Positions 21,498 through 56,444 of a stretch of DNA of 64,000 bases are shown in pieces. Every line of letters starts with the position of its first letter. The stretch's first letter is position 1. The notes under the pieces are model-generated. The model was not told the origin of the DNA and searched no databases. It saw only the letters and a program-made list of their open reading frames with translations. The DNA lies in assembly GCF_002940685.1 (NCBI RefSeq), contig NZ_PNFP01000009.1, forward strand, positions 62,001 through 126,000, given 5' to 3'. The position numbers and the translations under genes are program-made. The DNA is from Ensifer adhaerens. GTDB taxonomy: Bacteria > Pseudomonadota > Alphaproteobacteria > Rhizobiales > Rhizobiaceae.

Positions 21498-21718
21498 TTT
21501 TCTCCCAGAAAATAGACGTCATTCACCGCAGTTGAATTTGCTGTTCGCAATTTCCTGCCGCACTCGTATGTGCCTGCGCTTCCGGATGAGCACCAACCCT
21601 GAATGGCCGGATAAGGGACCAGACGGCCCAGTCGCGACGGCTTCCCGCGATTTGCGACGCTCGGCTCGCCACAAGCGCCAAGACCTTCAGCGCCGGCGAG
21701 CCCGCATGCGCGGCGCAG

Positions 21719-22117
21719 TTACGCGCCGCGGTACTGCTCGTCGCTCACATGCTCCAGCCAATCCACGGCCTTGCCGTCAAGCGCCTCCTGGATCGCCAGA
21801 TGCACCATGGCAGTGTCCGGCGCGGCACCGTGCCAATGTTTTTCGCCTGGCGGGAACCAGACGACGTCACCGACGCGAATCTCGCGCACGGGGCCGCCCC
21901 AGCTTTGGGCAAGGCCACGGCCGGCGGTCACGACCAATGTCTGGCCGAGCGGATGGGTGTGCCAGGCAGTGCGGGCGCCAGGTTCAAAGGTGACGCTGAC
22001 GGCACGGACGCGCGCCGGGGCCGCGGCCTCGATCACCGGGTCCTGACGCACCGTGCCGGTGAAGTACTCCGCCGGAGCGCGCATCGAAGGTCTCGACCCA
22101 CCTTGTATGATGTCCAT
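21719..22117 (-). CDS. Cupin-domain protein
   Basis: 132 residues forming a single small cupin barrel. Motif 1 is [17 protein letters not shown]-like with two His and a Gln, motif 2 is [12 protein letters not shown]; these provide a metal site. Similar stand-alone cupins include (R)-mandelonitrile lyase-like proteins and are often near oxidoreductases, but the substrate cannot be told from sequence. ATG at 22117 follows AGGAACGAGAG. It is monocistronic: the neighbour on its right ends 85 bases away. Bases 21514-21718 downstream hold nothing recognisable. Confidence 0.85.
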
Positions 22118-22201
22118 CTCTCGTTCCTCCGGTTTTTTTCAGGGCATGTATTCCCCGAAAATGCGTCACGGCCAGCGGGCACTGGCTTGGTCGCGAGCCT
22201 A

Positions 22202-25200
22202 TCATAACCTGTGGATCGTCACAGTCGGGCAGGCCTCACGGGCAATCTCGCAAAGATGCTCGTGGTGCGTCAGATAGATCACCTGGCCGACACGCGCCAT
22301 GTCTGCCATCTGCTCGAAGGCGCGGCCGGCCCGCCCGTCGTCGAAGGTCTCCATGATGTCATCGGCGATGAAGGGCAGCGATTCGCGCGCCGCGGCGATC
22401 TCGTGATAGCCGGCGATTCTCAGCGCGAGGTAGAGTTGGAATCGGGTGCCCTTGGAGAGATCCCTGGCAAGCTTCGATCCGCCGGCCGCCGCATTGGCGA
22501 TCAGGAACTCCTGCCCCCTGTCGGATTGCGCCGAGAGACCGGAGTACTCTCCGCCGCTGATCCGGCTGAAGGTTTCCGAAGCGCGGCGCATCATCGCGCT
22601 ACGGTGCCGCTCGCGGAAGAGCCGCAGCGCCGTCTCTGCGGCGATGACGCCGGCGCGCAGCCGCAGGTAGGCGAGCGCCTTGCCCTCGATGTCGAGAAGC
22701 AGCGTTCTGCGCTTCTGTTCGAGTTCTGCGACCGTATCGCCCCCCTCGACAGCGGCGAGCGCCTTTTCCCTTTCTCGCATCTCCGTATGCAGTTCGCTGA
22801 CGTCTCGGTCGCTTTCTTCGAGCGCCGCGTCCAGCCGCGCGAGTTCCAGCCTGACCTTCGCGTCATCGAGTTCCGCGAGCAGGGCCTCGGCTTGCTCGCT
22901 CCCGGCGACACCCAGGCGGGAAGCAAGATCCGCCTCCGATTCGGCGATGCGCTCGCGCAGGCGCTGCTGCTCCCGGCCGGCCTCAAACAGCTGCGCCGCT
23001 TCGTCGAGCGTTTCGCAACCGAAGAAATCAAGCACCAGGCGCCTGCGCGCGAGATGCAGCTCCCGTTCGGAGCAAGCGACACGCCGCTCCTCCTCCAGGC
23101 GCGCGAGTTCCGCGAGGAAGGTTGTACGGCGATCCGAAAGCCGTTGCGCCTCGGCTGCGCGCGCTTTCAGCGTCATGTAGGTCGTCAGGGTGTCGTCAGC
23201 GGTCGCCCCGCAGGCAAGCTCGGCAATGGCACGGTCAAACTCGATCTGGTCCTTGCGCATGCCGGCGATTCGATATTCGAGATCTGCCTTTCGCTGCGTG
23301 AGCTTGTCGAGCTCCTGCAGGATCGAGAGCATTGGACCGATCTGCTCCGGCGTCAAAGGCTCGCTGCGCGTGGCCAGCCAGCTTTTCGCAAGAGTATCCG
23401 TCCATTGCTCTTGCCAGGCGGCTATCGCGGCTTCCGAAACGTCGAGCGTGGATTGCCGGCTATCAAGGACCGTTTTCGCCCGCCTTGCCGCCTCACGGGT
23501 CGCATTGCGGGCGCCGTCCAGGGCGCGCGCCTGCGAGACGGCCTGCTCGGCGACAAGAAGAAGGCTGTCGAGCCGCTCCGGCAGGTGTCTGCCCATGTCT
23601 ATGGCCACAAGCTCCTCGCGCAGTCCGATGATTGCGTCGGTCTCCTCGGCATGAGCGCGATCGAAATCCTGGCGCGCGGAACGCAACTGGGCACGCAGCT
23701 CAAGTGCCACAAGCCGGACCGCCAACCACGCCTCCAGTTGAGTCAAGTCATTGACGCCGGGTAATCCGCAGGCCAAGGCGGCTGTTGCCAACACCTGCGC
23801 CTGCCTTGCCGCGTCAGCCAGAGATTGCCTCTCCTGTTCACGCAGCGCCTCGATGCGGGCACGCCGCTCGGCGATCGACAGCGAGAGGCCGCGCATGTCG
23901 GCAAGTCGCGTCGTTTCGGTGAGGCGCCGTGCGGTAAGCTCGTCGTCTTCGCCCATGACCCGTTCGAAGGCGATGGCCGTCTCGCAGACAAGCTGGGACC
24001 TGTGCTGCCGCCACGCTTCGTCCCGACGCTGGCGGAGCGCTGTGGCCGAGGCATCGTCCATCGTGCCGCCGACGGCGGAAAGCCCGGTCAGCCGTGCCTC
24101 CTCGCCCGCCAGCAATTCCTGCTCCGCGGCGATGCGGTCGACAACGCGCACGCGCCGCTCCTCGTGGCTGGCGGTCGCCTGGCGCCACGCCTCGAGCGCT
24201 GCCGGCGACGGGACGTCGAGCGCCAGAAGGTCATCGGCCATCCCGGCAAAGGGCCTCAGCAGCACGCGCTTGTCGGCGAGTTCCGCCTCCAGGCGGTCGA
24301 TGGCCTGTTGCGCCGCCTGTTTGCGCAGGGCGCAGTCGCTGCGCCGTAACAGCGACAGCCGCTCGGCAAGGCTCGTGACATCCGCTGCACCCTGCTCTTC
24401 GAGCCGGACCAGTTCGCGTTCGGCATCCCGATCGGATTCGACGGCGCTTTGCAACTCCTGGCGCGCCGAGGCCAGGCGCTCGACGAGCGCCGAGTGCCGG
24501 CGGGCGAGATCCTGAAGCTGGGCAGCGGTGCCTGCCGGCAGCAAAAGTCCCACGGGGTCGCGGTCGGCCGGTTCGCCAAGCCGCAGCAGGCAGCCGAGCA
24601 CTTCCGCCGCGGTCCTTGCCAGGTCCTCCAGTCGAGACGGCATGTCACGCGCCGCCGTGACGTAGCGCGCGTCAAGCGCTGTGTCCTGAAGCGCGGCCAG
24701 CCGCTCGATCAGGCAGAGACCTTCCTTGTCGATCGGCATTTCTTCGAGAGCGTCGCGGCGATGCTGGATCTCGCTGTCGCTTTGCCGCAGCCTGATCTCG
24801 ATCTCCGCCTCCCGACGGCGAAGCGCCGGCAGTTCGCTTGCCCACTCTGCCGGCGGGGCCGGCAGCGGTGGAGCGCTCGCCAGCTCCGCGCGGAGGGCGC
24901 GAAGTCGGCCGAAATGCGGCAGCGCCTCGATCTCGGCTTTGAGGCGAGCCCGTGCCAATCACAACTCACTGCGGCGGGTGATCGCTTCGTCGTGCCGTTC
25001 GCGCGCCTGCGTCAAGGTCTTGCGCAGCGCCGCATATTCGCGCGCATTGATATCGAGCGCGTTGCGCTCGGTCCTTAAGGACTCGAGCTCACCCTTGAGT
25101 TCCGCCAGTTGATGCTTGCGCGCCTGCGGACGGTAGAAGCCATCGGCCTGCCCGCGCAGGGCGGCAAGGATCGCCGTGCTGTCCGGTAGGCCAGAGCTCG

Positions 25201-25657
25201 CGGAAAACAGCAGCGATCCAAGTTCGCCCTCGCTTTTCAGGATCGCTTCGCCACCCTTCTCGATGCTCTCGTCATCAAGCGAGAACATCATCTGATAGGT
25301 GTCGCGATCGATGGCGCCGAGCGCGCCGGAAAACAGGTTGTCGGGCAAAGGTTGGTCGTCGGGACCGATCAGCGAATTCGTCTTTCGCTTGATCCGGAAG
25401 GCGCGGTCGGTGCGGCCGGCGGCTTCGATCGTGCCGCCGACGCGCATCGTCGGGTATGGATGCAGGAAACCATAGGGGCTCGAATGCTCGATACCGAAGA
25501 GCAGATCGAGGAAACCGGAAAACAGGGTCGACTTGCCGGCTTCGTTCGGGCCGTAGACGATGTGGAGATCCGGTGTACCGGGCACCCCGTCGCCGAAGTC
25601 GAGGCGGCGATCGGTGAACTTGCCGTAGCGGACGAGATCAAGTGCACTCAGCCGCAT
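22202..25657 (-). pseudogene. YhaN/SbcC-like AAA ATPase gene interrupted by an in-frame TGA
   Basis: One continuous frame of 1152 codons, normal for rhizobial YhaN-type proteins, except for a TGA at codon 233 (24959-24961). The N-terminal part (232 residues) has the P-loop GPNEAGKST at residues 36-44. The remainder (918 residues) has long Arg/Glu/Ala-rich coiled coils and the C-terminal half of the ATPase: the signature-like LSKGTRFQLYLALR, Walker B LPFIADDIMETFDD and the switch His in YLTHHEHL. No ribosome-binding site precedes the codon after the TGA. The ATG at 25657 overlaps the stop of the phosphoesterase gene (TGATG). With YhaO it would form an SbcCD/Rad50-Mre11-like complex. A sequencing error is possible. 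Confidence 0.85.
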
Positions 25658-26937
25658 CAGTTGGCCCCCTCGCCGGCGCCGCCACCATGAAGATGGGCAA
25701 GCACCTCGGCCGTTCCCGACACCCCGGCCTCGAAGGCCAGCCGCTCGACCGCCTCCTCATCCGGCGCGAGCGATTGGCGAAGTTCGGGCGGAAGCTGCTG
25801 CAAGACGTCTTCCACGGCTGAGAGCACATCCTGGCGAAAGCCGTGCGCCGGCAGGACATCCGTCTCGACCAGCGCTGCCAGCTCCTCGACGGGATCGAGG
25901 ATGGCGCCCGGCGTTTCAGTCCGGACGTTGCTGCAGGTCAGCTCGACCTTCTCGATCCAGCAGCCGGCGATGCCGGCAGCGATGTTGTCGATCTCTGCCC
26001 GCAGCAGGTCCGCGTCACGGCGAAGGCGCCAGGCCAAGGGCGTGGTGCCGCCAAGCATCAGACGCAGGATGACGTTCTGTGCCGATATCTCGCCACACAC
26101 ACGCGAAAGCGCCTGCCTGACGGCATCGAGCATGTCACGCCATTCCGCGAGCCCCGTCAGGTCGACGCGCAGGCGTTCGAAACTGGCAATGCCGATTGCC
26201 CGCTCGGCAAGACTGACATGGCCGTCGTCGTCGATCGTGACCAGAGACACGCTCTTTACGCCGACTTCATTGATGTCGCGCCCCTGCGGCATGCCCGGCA
26301 TGACGACGAAGGGCGCCGTCGCATGGACCTGCCGCTGATGAATGTGGCCGAGGGCCCAGTAGTCGAAGCCGTGGGCAATGAGGTCGGCGACGCTGCAGGG
26401 GGCGTAGAGATCATGGCCGGCGGCGCCTGCGAGACTCGTATGCAGCATGCCGACGTTCACCGCGCCGGGCACCGGTGGCTGGAAAGCCGGAAGCAGGCTT
26501 TCGGGCGCATGCGGGCTGGCGAAGCTCACGCCGTGCACGTAGACGTCGCGGCCGCTTGCCAGAGTCTTGGCGGCGACCGCCTTTGCCCTGCCTTTGAAGA
26601 CATGGGCGGACGGCGGCAGGGTCAGTTCATTGGTGACCTGGGACTGGGCATCGTGATTGCCACGAATGATGAAGACGCGGATACCGTGTTCGTCCAGCCG
26701 GCGCAGTTCCCGACCGAGAAACAACGCCGTGTTCATCGACGTCTGGCTGCCATCGTAGAGATCGCCGGCAATCAGCAGGGCATCGGCCTCTTCGGCGATG
26801 CAGAGGTCGACGATATTGACGAGGGCCTGCCGCGACGCCCCGCGCACGATCTCTGCGAGATCGGCATTTCTGAGGGCGAGGCTGCGGAGAGGCGAGTCGA
26901 GATGCAGGTCTGCGGTGTGGACGAAACGGAAGGGCAT
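25657..26937 (-). CDS. YhaO/SbcD-like DNA repair metallophosphoesterase
   Basis: 426 residues. Calcineurin-type phosphoesterase of the Mre11/SbcD group: FVHTADLHLDSP (D10, H12), AGDLYDG (D59), RGNHD (94-96 NHD), LGHIHQRQ in the middle, then a C-terminal regulatory part. Expected to be a Mn-dependent exo/endonuclease working with the adjacent SbcC-like ATPase on DNA ends. The start MPFRFVHTADLH at 26937 is chosen because the family begins just before the first metal motif; a GTG eight codons upstream is possible. The stop overlaps the ATPase start codon. Confidence 0.9.
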   Translation of the reverse strand: MPFRFVHTADLHLDSPLRSLALRNADLAEIVRGASRQALVNIVDLCIAEEADALLIAGDLYDGSQTSMNTALFLGRELRRLDEHGIRVFIIRGNHDAQSQVTNELTLPPSAHVFKGRAKAVAAKTLASGRDVYVHGVSFASPHAPESLLPAFQPPVPGAVNVGMLHTSLAGAAGHDLYAPCSVADLIAHGFDYWALGHIHQRQVHATAPFVVMPGMPQGRDINEVGVKSVSLVTIDDDGHVSLAERAIGIASFERLRVDLTGLAEWRDMLDAVRQALSRVCGEISAQNVILRLMLGGTTPLAWRLRRDADLLRAEIDNIAAGIAGCWIEKVELTCSNVRTETPGAILDPVEELAALVETDVLPAHGFRQDVLSAVEDVLQQLPPELRQSLAPDEEAVERLAFEAGVSGTAEVLAHLHGGGAGEGAN

Positions 26938-27317
26938 GACCGACCATGGCCGCCCCGCCACCGCCCGTCAATCAGTGCCAACGCGTCATCCACTTGGGAG
27001 ATGCGCCGCCCTCGCGCAAGCATATTTCAGATCACGAAAGTAAAGGCAGAGCTAATACAAATGCGGCCGGCTGCGATTGTTAACATCGCCCGTCCCTGAC
27101 AGCCAGAGGCTACCTGCAAATATCAGATTATACTCACTTTAATCGATTAGGGCTTTTGTAACATCTTGTTCGATAGGTTTGCGCCGGTTGCGTTTCAAGC
27201 GCGTCCAAGCACCGGAATGATTCCTGCTTCGGCTATCCGCTCCGTCATGACGATCAAGAGCCGGAATGACTTAATTCAAGTACAGTTTTACGGACGGCCG
27301 TCCTTCCGGGGGTACAC
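26938..27317. other. Gene-free divergent region between the nuclease and the chemoreceptor
   Basis: 380 bases without a supported gene. It must carry the promoters of the two divergent units. A perfect 12-base palindrome GGACGGCCGTCC (27292-27303) sits just before the ribosome-binding site of the chemoreceptor, where it could affect translation. I find no convincing -35/-10 pair. Confidence 0.4.
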
Positions 27318-29156
27318 ATGTCACGGCTCAAGATTTCCCACACGCTTATTGCCCTTTTCCTCGTGGTCGCCGTTATCGTCTCGGCGCTTGCCGTTTCCTC
27401 GCTCGGCGGCATCAAGATGATGAACGAGCGCAACAACGAGATCGCCACCACCTGGCTGCCGCGCGTCTCGCTTTCGCGCGCGCTCGAAACCCAGCTTTCC
27501 GATACCCGCATGGCCTTTGCCCGCCACCTGATTTCCTTGACCCCGTTCGAAAAGAAGGCCGCGGAAAAAGTCATCGGCCAGACCGTCGAAGGCTTCAACA
27601 AGCTCGCGGACGAATATTCGAGCCTGATGGTCACCGATGCCGACAAGGCAGCGCTCGACAGTGTGCGGGCGGCCTACCAGGCATACCTCTCGGTCGCCGA
27701 AGGCATGGTCAAGCTCTCCAACAACCTCGAAAACATGAAGGCGCAGAGCGTCTTCAAGGTCGAGATGCGCGAAACCGAAGGCAAGGTCGACGAGGCGATC
27801 AAGGAAATGCGCGCGCTGAACGTCGCCGGTGCGGATGCCGCGGTCGCCGCAAGCTCGGCCACGCATGACCAGATCCGCATGATCGAGATCGCCGTCATCG
27901 CGCTTGCCGCCGTGATCGTGCTCGGCGCCATCCTCTATGCCGTGCGCGGTATTGCCCGCCCGATCCAGATCATCACCCGCTCGATGGCACGCCTTGCCGA
28001 AGGCGACACCGACAGCAGCATCCCCTATGGCGCCCGCAAGGACGAAATCGGAGAGATGGCCCGCGCGGTCGAGGTCTTCCGCCAGGCGGCGATCAGCAAC
28101 CAGCACCTCGAGGCGGATGCTCATGCACAGCGTGCCAAGGCGGAAGCCGAGCGCGTTCGCGTGACCGAAGAAGCGGAAGCTGCTGCCCAGCGCCGCCTTC
28201 AGGAAGCGACCGCCGGTCTTGCCACCGGCCTGCGCCGCCTCGCCTCGGGCGATCTCGCCTTCCAGCTCAACGAACCCTTCGCGCCCGACTTCGAACAGCT
28301 TCGCCACGACCTGAACCAGGCCGTCGCCCAGCTTGCCGACACGCTCACCGCCGTATCGGCAGCCTCCGGCAGCATCGACAGCGGTGCCCGTGAAGTGAGC
28401 CAGAGCGCCGACGACCTGTCGCGCCGGACCGAGCAGCAGGCAGCATCGCTGGAAGAAACGGCGGCGGCGCTCGACCAGATCACGGTCAATGTCGGCAACT
28501 CGTCGAAGCGCACCAACGAAGCCCGCACCGTTGCCGGTCAGGCCAACGAAAGCGCCCGCAAGTCCGGCGCGATCGTCTCGGGCGCGGTCGATGCCATGGG
28601 CCGCATCGAACATTCGTCGAGCCAGATCTCCAACATCATCGGTGTCATCGACGAGATTGCCTTCCAGACCAACCTGCTGGCACTCAATGCCGGTGTGGAA
28701 GCGGCACGCGCCGGTGACGCCGGCAAGGGCTTTGCCGTCGTCGCCCAGGAAGTGCGCGAACTGGCACAGCGCTCGGCCAATGCGGCCAAGGAGATCAAGG
28801 ATCTGATCCGCAACTCCGCCGTTGAAGTCGAAAGCGGCGTCAGGCTCGTACGCGAAACCGGCGAGGCCCTGCGCACGATCGAAGGCTTCATCGTCACCAT
28901 CAACCAGCACATGGACGCGATCGCGGTCTCGGCGCAGGAGCAGTCCGCCGGGCTCTCCGAGGTCAACATGGCCGTCAACCAGATGGACCAGGTCACCCAG
29001 CAGAACGCGGCGATGGTCGAGGAGGCTAATGCGGCAAGCGCGACGCTTGCCCAGGAAGCCGGCCGCCTGCGCGAACTGATCGCGCGCTTCACGCTCGCTG
29101 ACGCCGGCGGCCACGGCTACGCGCAATCGATCAGCGGGTCGCGCTGGGCCGCCTGA
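27318..29156 (+). CDS. Methyl-accepting chemotaxis protein
   Basis: 612-residue transmembrane chemoreceptor. A first helix (about 8-30), a periplasmic helical-bundle sensor (31-185), a second helix (about 188-209), a HAMP domain (about 210-262), a charged coiled coil (262-297), a second HAMP-like segment (about 300-350) and the signalling domain. The hairpin tip with EIAFQTNLLALNAGVEAARAG starts at residue 446. It would control CheA through CheW. There is no C-terminal pentapeptide for CheR/CheB tethering. The ATG at 27318 follows GGGGG. A strong terminator follows. The ligand cannot be inferred. Confidence 0.94.
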   Translation: MSRLKISHTLIALFLVVAVIVSALAVSSLGGIKMMNERNNEIATTWLPRVSLSRALETQLSDTRMAFARHLISLTPFEKKAAEKVIGQTVEGFNKLADEYSSLMVTDADKAALDSVRAAYQAYLSVAEGMVKLSNNLENMKAQSVFKVEMRETEGKVDEAIKEMRALNVAGADAAVAASSATHDQIRMIEIAVIALAAVIVLGAILYAVRGIARPIQIITRSMARLAEGDTDSSIPYGARKDEIGEMARAVEVFRQAAISNQHLEADAHAQRAKAEAERVRVTEEAEAAAQRRLQEATAGLATGLRRLASGDLAFQLNEPFAPDFEQLRHDLNQAVAQLADTLTAVSAASGSIDSGAREVSQSADDLSRRTEQQAASLEETAAALDQITVNVGNSSKRTNEARTVAGQANESARKSGAIVSGAVDAMGRIEHSSSQISNIIGVIDEIAFQTNLLALNAGVEAARAGDAGKGFAVVAQEVRELAQRSANAAKEIKDLIRNSAVEVESGVRLVRETGEALRTIEGFIVTINQHMDAIAVSAQEQSAGLSEVNMAVNQMDQVTQQNAAMVEEANAASATLAQEAGRLRELIARFTLADAGGHGYAQSISGSRWAA

Positions 29157-54029: not shown

Positions 54030-55133
54030 TCAGTCCCGATACGCGATCGCCGTCGGCCGCGGATACTCGCCGTAGAAGCCGCGCCAGTGGGCGATGGCGA
54101 AGCCGAGCACGACCAGCGCGCCGCCCTGGTGCGCCACGCCCCAGCCGATCGGCACCTGCAAGACCAGCGTGGTGATGCCGATCACCGCCTGGACGCTGAT
54201 CAGCAGGAACAGCAGCACCGATCGCCGCGCATGGGTGGTCTCGGGCGCTGCCCGCAGCGAGGCGATCATGTGCATCAGCGCGAAGGCGAAGAGCACATAG
54301 GCGCCGACGCGGTGGACGAACTGCACCGTCTTCGGGTTCTCGAACAGGTTGATCCACCAGGGCTGCTGCAGGAACAGGTCCTGCGGGATGATCGCGCCAT
54401 CCATCAGCGGCCAGGTGTTGTAGCTGAAGCCGGCGTCGAGACCTGCGACCAGCGCGCCGAGGTAGATCTGGAACAGGCTGAAGATGGCGATGATAGCAGC
54501 CATCTTGCGCGAGCGGTCGGTCGGCGCCGTGTCGTTGGAATGAGAACTCAGCCCGCGGAAAATCCACATGCAGGCGGCAAAGATCAGACAGGCGATGACG
54601 AGATGCGTCGCCAGCCGATACTGGCTGACCTCGGTGCGCTCGACGAGACCCGAGGAAACCATCCACCAGCCGATGAACCCCTGGAAACCGCCAAGCGCGA
54701 GGATACCGAGAAGCGGCATCCGCAGCCGGCGCTCGACCTTCCCGGTGAACCAGAAATAGGCAAGCGGCAAGGCGAAGATCAAGCCGATGGTGCGGGCCAG
54801 CAGCCGGTGCGCCCATTCCCACCAGAAGATGGTCTTGAATTGTTCCACCGTCATGCTGTTGTTCATCTGCTGGTATTGCGGAATGCGCTGGTAGAGCTGG
54901 AACTCCTCTTCCCACTCTGCGGCCGAAAGCGGCGGGATGACGCCGTGGATCGGCTTCCATTCGGTGATCGACAGGCCCGATTCCGTCAGCCGCGTCGCGC
55001 CGCCGACGAGCACCAGGGCAAAGAGCGTAAAGAGCACGACGGCCAGCCAGCCGCGGATCTGCCGGCGATTGCGGTCGGTCTTGCCGATCTCGTTTCGAAG
55101 CATTTGTTCAGTCGCCAATTCGACGCCGGCCAT
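54030..55133 (-). CDS. ctaA: Heme A synthase
   Basis: 367-residue integral membrane protein with eight hydrophobic helices, of the COX15/CtaA type. It oxidises the C8 methyl of heme O to the formyl group of heme A for aa3 oxidase. Conserved His residues are in [30 protein letters not shown] and [35 protein letters not shown] near the N-terminus is the family signature (first loop). Start at 55133 ([10 protein letters not shown]) chosen; ATG at 55136 is one codon earlier. GAGGG precedes both. Confidence 0.95.
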
Positions 55134-55305
55134 CATGTTCCCTCTGGTGTCGCAGGGTTGTCGGCGGCGCAACCGGACGGATCAACGGTCGCACCTTCAG
55201 GAAAGCCGTTGATTTGCACCAGAGCGGCATGCAAAACAAGGCCGAAACCTTTGCGGCATGCGGTCGCGGCCGTCCGCGTCCATTTGTCCCTGTGAAAGAT
55301 ATGAA

Positions 55306-55518
55306 ATGCCCGTACGCCTCAGAAAGCTGATCGGCACGATCCTGATCATCATCCTCGTCGTCGTCTATGCACTGGCCGCCGTCACCTTTGCCTCGCTGCT
55401 GCTCGGTGCCGCCCCCTGGTACGTGCATCTGGCCTACTTCTTCTTCACCGGGCTGCTCTGGATCTTGCCGGCGATGCTGATTATCAAATGGATGGAAAAG
55501 CCGGCGCGCGACCGCTGA
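55306..55518 (+). CDS. DUF2842 membrane protein
   Basis: 70 residues with two hydrophobic helices (about 7-28 and 38-60) and the end IIKWMEKPARDR, a pattern of DUF2842 proteins found mainly in alphaproteobacteria. No known function. ATG at 55306 follows GAAAG. Divergent from ctaA, which may be meaningful, and 33 bases upstream of the phosphoesterase gene. Confidence 0.8.
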   Translation: MPVRLRKLIGTILIIILVVVYALAAVTFASLLLGAAPWYVHLAYFFFTGLLWILPAMLIIKWMEKPARDR

Positions 55519-55551
55519 GCCTGAGCGCGGCAGCCATTCGAGGAGACGCCC

Positions 55552-56292
55552 GTGAAACTTGCGGTCATCGCTGATATCCATGGCAACGATCTCGCACTCG
55601 AGGCCGTGCTCGCCGACATTGGCGCGCTCGGCATCACCGACATCGTCAATCTCGGCGACCACTTGAGCGGTCCGCTCAATGCGGCGCGTACCGCCGACAT
55701 CCTCATCGAGCGGGAGATCCTCTCGATCCGGGGCAATCACGATCGTTATCTCGTGACGATCGATCCCCGCGACCTGCCGCTGTCGGATCGCACAGCCTAC
55801 GATCAATTGCAGCCACGGCATCGTGAGTGGCTCGCCACCCTGCCCGTCGCGCACGTCCACGAAAACACGTTCTTCCTGTGCCACGCGACGCCGACCAACG
55901 ACGAAACCTACTGGCTGGAGGCATTGACGGCCGACGGCACCGTCCATATGGCGCAGCGTTCGGCCATCGAGGCGAAAGCAGCCGGCATCGATTATCCGGT
56001 TATCCTGTGCGGACACACCCATATCCAGCGCGCCGTGCGGCTTTCCGACGGCCGGCTCGTCGTCAATCCCGGCAGCGTCGGCTGCCCCGGCTATGACGAC
56101 GACCAACCGGTGCCGCACAGGGTCGAGGCAGGTTCGCCGGACGCACGCTACGCCATCGTCGAGCGGGCGGTTTCCGGGTGGCACGTCACCTTCCGCAGCG
56201 TCCCCTATGACTGGATGGCGATGTCTCGGCTTGCGGCCAGCCGCAACCGCATGGAATGGGAAAAGGCATTGGCCACGGGCTTTCTCGATTAA
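55552..56292 (+). CDS. Metallophosphoesterase (YfcE-like)
   Basis: 246-residue calcineurin-like phosphoesterase: MKLAVIADIHGN (D, H), IVNLGDHLSGP (D), IRGNHDRY (N-H-D), ILCGHTHIQRAV (GHxH) and VNPGSVGCPGY, all metal ligands intact. Substrates may be nucleotides or protein phosphates. GTG start at 55552 with GAGGAG seven bases before it. Likely co-transcribed with the upstream DUF2842 gene. Confidence 0.87.
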   Translation: MKLAVIADIHGNDLALEAVLADIGALGITDIVNLGDHLSGPLNAARTADILIEREILSIRGNHDRYLVTIDPRDLPLSDRTAYDQLQPRHREWLATLPVAHVHENTFFLCHATPTNDETYWLEALTADGTVHMAQRSAIEAKAAGIDYPVILCGHTHIQRAVRLSDGRLVVNPGSVGCPGYDDDQPVPHRVEAGSPDARYAIVERAVSGWHVTFRSVPYDWMAMSRLAASRNRMEWEKALATGFLD

Positions 56293-56444
56293 AATCTGCG
56301 AGCACTTCACATGCCTCGCTTCACGCTTTGCTAACCGCGTTCGCCGGTTCTTCCCAATCGGCTTCATAAGTATTCCCGAATTAAAGCGATCGTAGCGGGC
56401 TTGAGGTTCAATCACTCCGCAACAAGGACCGGACGGCAGCCGCA

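Follow-up and report, generated by a model that had tools for sequence, protein, structure and literature searches.

We propose, with a probability of roughly 0.7, that a recent nonsense mutation truncated the YhaN/SbcC-type ATPase of this strain, a soil bacterium, after residue 232 of 1151. In the window, by which we mean the whole stretch of 64,000 nucleotides that was analysed, the ATPase frame runs on the minus strand from 25657 to 22202 and comprises 1152 codons including the final stop. It is open apart from a single TGA at 24961-24959, which divides it into 232 and 918 residues and on both sides of which the frame remains in phase. The interruption of this frame, as first described in the initial annotation, is real in the given sequence. 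The features considered here are as follows.

24959..24961, minus strand: in-frame TGA, codon 233 of the ATPase frame; an arginine codon in 15/15 other genomes of the genus
24962..25657, minus strand: 5' fragment of 232 aa, the ABC-type head N-lobe (Pfam AAA_27) and the start of the first coiled-coil helix
22202..24958, minus strand: 3' fragment of 918 codons plus stop, covering what remains of the coiled coil together with the C-lobe; no match to a Pfam family at E 0.001
25657..26961, minus strand: intact partner, a phosphoesterase of SbcD/Mre11 type; one base of its final TGA is shared with the start codon of the ATPase
24959..24970, minus strand: 12-base block in which five bases are window-specific, two within the stop codon; nowhere else in the gene are such differences so dense

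The N-lobe domain is complete before the break, matching PF13514 (AAA_27) at E 1.4e-67 over residues 1-208 of the 232-residue fragment. The arrangement of motifs given in the initial annotation, a P-loop before the TGA with signature and Walker B after it, held up: the Walker A stretch GPNEAGKS is read upstream, and stretches that we take to be signature-like and Walker B-like are read in the 918-residue part downstream. This 3' fragment alone gave no Pfam match at E 0.001, and the kinship of the C-lobe to Rad50/SbcC was supported weakly, by a profile of 14 intact relatives against Rad50 C-lobes at E 5.2e-4 to 9.2e-3; these matches make up five of the six listed sequences, the sixth being an unrelated chain at E 0.0015. 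No CxxC zinc-hook motif was found in the window's ATPase frame or in the 14 aligned relatives. Where a YhaN/AAA_27 SbcC-like ATPase is one continuous polypeptide, the window's is stopped at codon 233, and a search of the strain's own genome with 401 bases around the TGA returned one place, the site itself.

Among relatives the gene is whole. The counterpart of the 3' part is present in all 16 genomes of the genus (Sinorhizobium and Ensifer being synonyms; the window's genome included), and the frame is uninterrupted in the other 15, at 1168-1194 codons from stop to stop, which answers the concern that the two parts might always be separate proteins in homologues. Alignment with the genus homologues, suggested earlier as the way to find the expected residue, gave arginine at the site in 15/15 (14 genomes in one alignment and L005 in a separate comparison), written with four different Arg codons in nine, four, one and one genomes. 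A wider alignment of 14 intact frames, not confined to the genus, shows Arg there in 13 and Gly in one. As for a second isolate of the same species, a contig search that possibly omitted records very near the window's own gave two loci only, the counterparts in G003 and G011, and the plasmid collection gave seven records of 60-80% identity, each covering less than 80% of the query.

The partner phosphoesterase (Pfam Metallophos, E 4e-15) lies directly upstream of the ATPase, and such an adjacent SbcD/Mre11-like partner was found in 16/16 genus genomes, the window's included. YhaN and YhaO are the gene names for the ATPase and the nuclease of such a pair; none of the literature titles listed dealt with the pair in rhizobia. 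A promoter scan of 21600-27400 found none, with 0.5 expected in shuffles, so this absence says nothing.

If the TGA ends translation at codon 233, what is left over would be an N-lobe followed by a short stretch of coiled coil, lacking the half that carries signature and Walker B. No active head dimer would be expected to form without that half, the partner nuclease would be produced without its ATPase, and the ATPase gene would be an incipient pseudogene.

Age of the stop and the question of error

How long the stop might have been in place was considered from three-taxon Nei-Gojobori estimates over 1151 codons, with G009 or G001 as the outgroup. With G009, omega after the stop was 0.160 on the window branch (bootstrap 95% 0.113-0.229) and 0.129 on the branch of relative G003; with G001 the two values were 0.149 (0.104-0.213) and 0.143. 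These differences between the two branches include zero. Supposing that neutrality of the stretch set in with the stop, the post-stop share of the window branch would be no more than about 8-12%, both figures being upper bounds. Before the stop, the window-branch omega is lower (0.050 and 0.037), and the post-stop part is thus faster in relative terms. The ATPase gene is fast overall, its omega of 0.137 being close to the 90th percentile, which is 0.135 for the genes compared on the contig, whose median is 0.055 (usable omega in 204 of 213 trios). The 14 intact relatives are invariant at 162 columns, 100 of them beyond the stop, and the window departs from them at a single one, likewise beyond the stop. 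Judging from these substitution patterns, constraint still appears to act on the sequence past the stop, and the stop would therefore be young, or an artefact; the missing relaxation fits equally well an artefact or a still-functional product.

The second of these possibilities, a sequencing or assembly error with the gene intact in the strain, ranks next after a nonsense mutation in our consideration, and we regard it as unlikely. It draws on the source of the sequence, a single isolate in an 81-contig draft, and on the lack of relaxation downstream of the stop. What weakens it is the nature of the change itself. Two of the three bases of the stop codon differ from the three nearest relatives (G003, G009 and G001), so that a single wrong base alone does not explain the TGA unless the other difference is real. 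All three bases of the codon three before the stop also differ from the same relatives. Together there are five window-specific changes in 12 bases, the sole 12-base interval in the gene with five. In a conditional shuffle with the two stop-codon changes given, five were reached in 2.06% of 20,000 trials (0.0206), a test selected after the block had been seen. A one-base error is less likely in the presence of a two-base codon difference within this block, although five odd bases in 12 could also mark a local assembly fault.

We note that the window branch is the more heavily changed over 22202-25657 generally, with 150 branch-specific changes against 108 on the G003 branch, and 10 codons changed at two or more bases (one of them at all three) against one. 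A template switch or gene conversion as the origin of the block was also considered and rejected: among exact words of 10-18 bases that share eight or more bases with the block, none occurs elsewhere on the contig, and a 20-mer allowed up to three mismatches matched the strain's own genome once, at the site itself, a backward control pattern likewise giving one match.

The frequency of such interruptions along the contig bears on the same question. In 400 kb of G003, 325 open frames were picked, 244 of which have a counterpart at 65% identity or more on the window's 328-kb contig. Thirteen of the 244 counterparts were flagged, and only in the ATPase does a clear stop lie deep within the frame, which speaks against error. 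The first stop of nine flagged frames comes in roughly the first 50 residues, and we took these as probable over-extended starts. Two more, with stops near residues 68 and 101, look like over-extended starts as well, because G009 also has stops near their starts; the remaining ones are a tandem copy without a stop and the ATPase gene. In the reverse direction 249 of 266 frames had counterparts, and the 11 flagged were each so within about 40 residues of one end. One of the nine, outside the window at C81:23038-24959 (L021:3038-4959; counterpart G003 54402-56327), may have a frame change near residue 117-120 of 641, with G009 open throughout. It is possibly a second broken gene on the contig, or else an over-extended start, and a frame change there would fit decay or assembly faults alike; this possibility moved the odds slightly towards error.

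The initial annotation had offered three options, namely a recent nonsense mutation, a sequencing error or read-through. The first is the one we favour, the second has become less likely in its one-base form, and the third found little support, as described next together with restart.

Restart and read-through

Could the second part nevertheless be made as a separate chain, with translation restarting at the TTG beside the stop and the two lobes assembling without a covalent link? We consider such a functional two-chain protein very improbable. The codon after the TGA is TTG, with no other in-frame TTG up to codon 320; the next in-frame ATG is codon 307, 74 codons on, with no GTG before it. 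Pairing with the anti-Shine-Dalgarno sequence is -4.7 kcal/mol at this TTG, a value reached by 35.5% of the tested codon positions of the gene, compared with -10.7 kcal/mol at the gene's own start; the earlier remark that no ribosome-binding site accompanies the TTG therefore stands. In the AlphaFold model of the intact relative G003, the break falls inside a predicted helix (residues 181-244, block means 76-77); the model is poor overall (mean pLDDT 64.9, with N-terminal head blocks at about 31-51 and the C-terminal head at about 38-62), and only the helix around residue 233 was used.

What can be said for two chains is that the break comes only after the whole N-lobe domain (1-208), that crystals of Rad50 heads have been obtained with the N and C parts as separate pieces, with separate Rad50 B chains among the structure matches listed, and that one relative encodes the ATPase in two genes. 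In G028 (2.0 Mb; L086:3054-5911, minus strand), the one genome examined for its genus, the ATPase appears as two translationally coupled genes, the first of 460 residues with the N-lobe and the second of 492 residues with the C-lobe and a hydrophobic stretch at its start; they are joined by a 4-base ATGA overlap with AAAGGAG upstream (-8.8 kcal/mol). In a search with the G028 C-lobe that matched 46 of 151 genomes, C-lobe frames of fewer than 1000 codons were found in G028, G080 (broken), G038 (a remnant) and G267 (fragmentary). The G028 arrangement looks like a real two-gene form and makes a two-chain version conceivable. It differs from the window in its signals, and its split lies much further along the chain. 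The more specific scenario, in which YhaN-type ATPases tolerate a two-chain form and stopping at the TGA with restart at the TTG would give one chain with the N-lobe and another with coil and C-lobe that still assemble, a step towards the two-gene form of G028, strikes us as slightly more doubtful again.

Read-through of the TGA, by a near-cognate tRNA or with selenocysteine, often enough to supply the full-length protein, is about as remote as that scenario. In an E. coli reporter study, TGA is the leakiest stop, with mean read-through in minimal medium from 0.52% (42 degrees) to 5.58% (18 degrees) of wild type, and single premature stop contexts reach up to 80% under stress; the same study reports that T after the stop favours termination (PMC11126739), and T is the base that follows the TGA here. 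A tRNA-Sec gene is present in the genome at 74 bits against a cut-off of 47; weak matches also turned up in every one of the 14 control genomes, exceeding the cut-off in five of them, and only the 74-bit match was used. On the other hand, the 52-nt fold after the UGA shows no SECIS-like hairpin above background (z -0.48, 54 of 200 shuffles being as good), as judged by general folding. Neither Cys nor Sec occurs at the aligned site in the genus genomes or in the wider 14. With arginine there in genus relatives, selenocysteine was rejected in spite of the tRNA-Sec, and with their frames uninterrupted, read-through is not a conserved feature. Both read-through and a functional split are thus unlikely, and we return to a recent nonsense mutation as the preferred reading.

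Dispensability and comparison with known systems

The strain would tolerate a truncating mutation of this kind because it can dispense with the YhaN-type complex and also carries a canonical SbcCD. For the first point, N-lobe homologues were found in 70/199 family genomes at E 1e-20 and in 68/297 order genomes at E 1e-25. Both counts include the window's genome, which is one of five with matches in the two lists; there are 134 distinct matches in all. The frame is shorter than 1000 codons in eight of these 134: the window's, three running to contig ends (G154, G218, G310), three broken ones and the split one of G028. In G080 the ATPase changes frame between residues 660 and 735 with its partner intact, in G173 the match of a second copy ends near residue 603, and G289 (L091) carries a decayed pair, with a frame change in the partner nuclease and another in the ATPase. 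G379 (L093), of the same genus as G289, has an unbroken ATPase frame of 1146 codons. G038 retains only a C-terminal ATPase remnant, with no partner found in the 9 kb examined. We consider the complex dispensable because the N-lobe was not found in many relatives, which often do without the gene, and because it is broken in G080, G289 and the second copy of G173 and reduced to a remnant in G038.

For the second point, a separate SbcD/SbcC pair is located in the window's genome at L062:1-2882 on the minus strand (contig C11 of G000, a different contig from the window's). Its SbcD scores 158.1 bits with TIGR00619 (cut-off 77.65) and adjoins an SbcC frame of 1032 codons, whose best TIGR00618 score, 118.7 bits, was obtained on a scanned part of 561 residues and does not reach the whole-protein cut-off of 478.5. 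Given this pair, the strain should still have some Mre11-Rad50-type function. The earlier suggestion that the strain would lack this DNA-end processing complex with its nuclease intact is accordingly retained for the partner, which is intact, and narrowed for the loss, which would be limited to the YhaON-type complex, the N-lobe of which was not found at E 1e-20 in 129/199 family genomes.

Provided that the stop is real, the strain would be a naturally occurring mutant for the YhaN-type ATPase in which the nuclease partner is intact and canonical SbcCD is encoded separately. Such a mutant would be useful for asking what role the second complex plays; beyond that, the gene is an ordinary lineage-specific pseudogene.

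Lastly, we compare the locus with what is known. It resembles a YhaN/YhaO-type SbcC/SbcD-like pair in the nuclease directly upstream with overlapping stop and start codons, in the AAA_27 N-lobe and in an ATPase frame of about 1150 codons, and differs from it in the stop at codon 233. With canonical SbcCD and Mre11-Rad50 it shares a phosphoesterase, a split-lobe ABC ATPase with a long coiled coil and, through the profile of 14 intact relatives, a match to the Rad50 C-lobe (E 5.2e-4); unlike them, the window's frame has no CxxC zinc hook at the coil apex, and the strain's canonical SbcCD is the separate locus. With bacterial single-nonsense pseudogenes it shares a lineage-specific in-frame stop, a dispensable gene and an otherwise intact downstream frame. 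The window's stop differs in sitting within a small cluster of substitutions, with nothing else distinctive about it, and the event is most likely an ordinary lineage-specific loss-of-function mutation.
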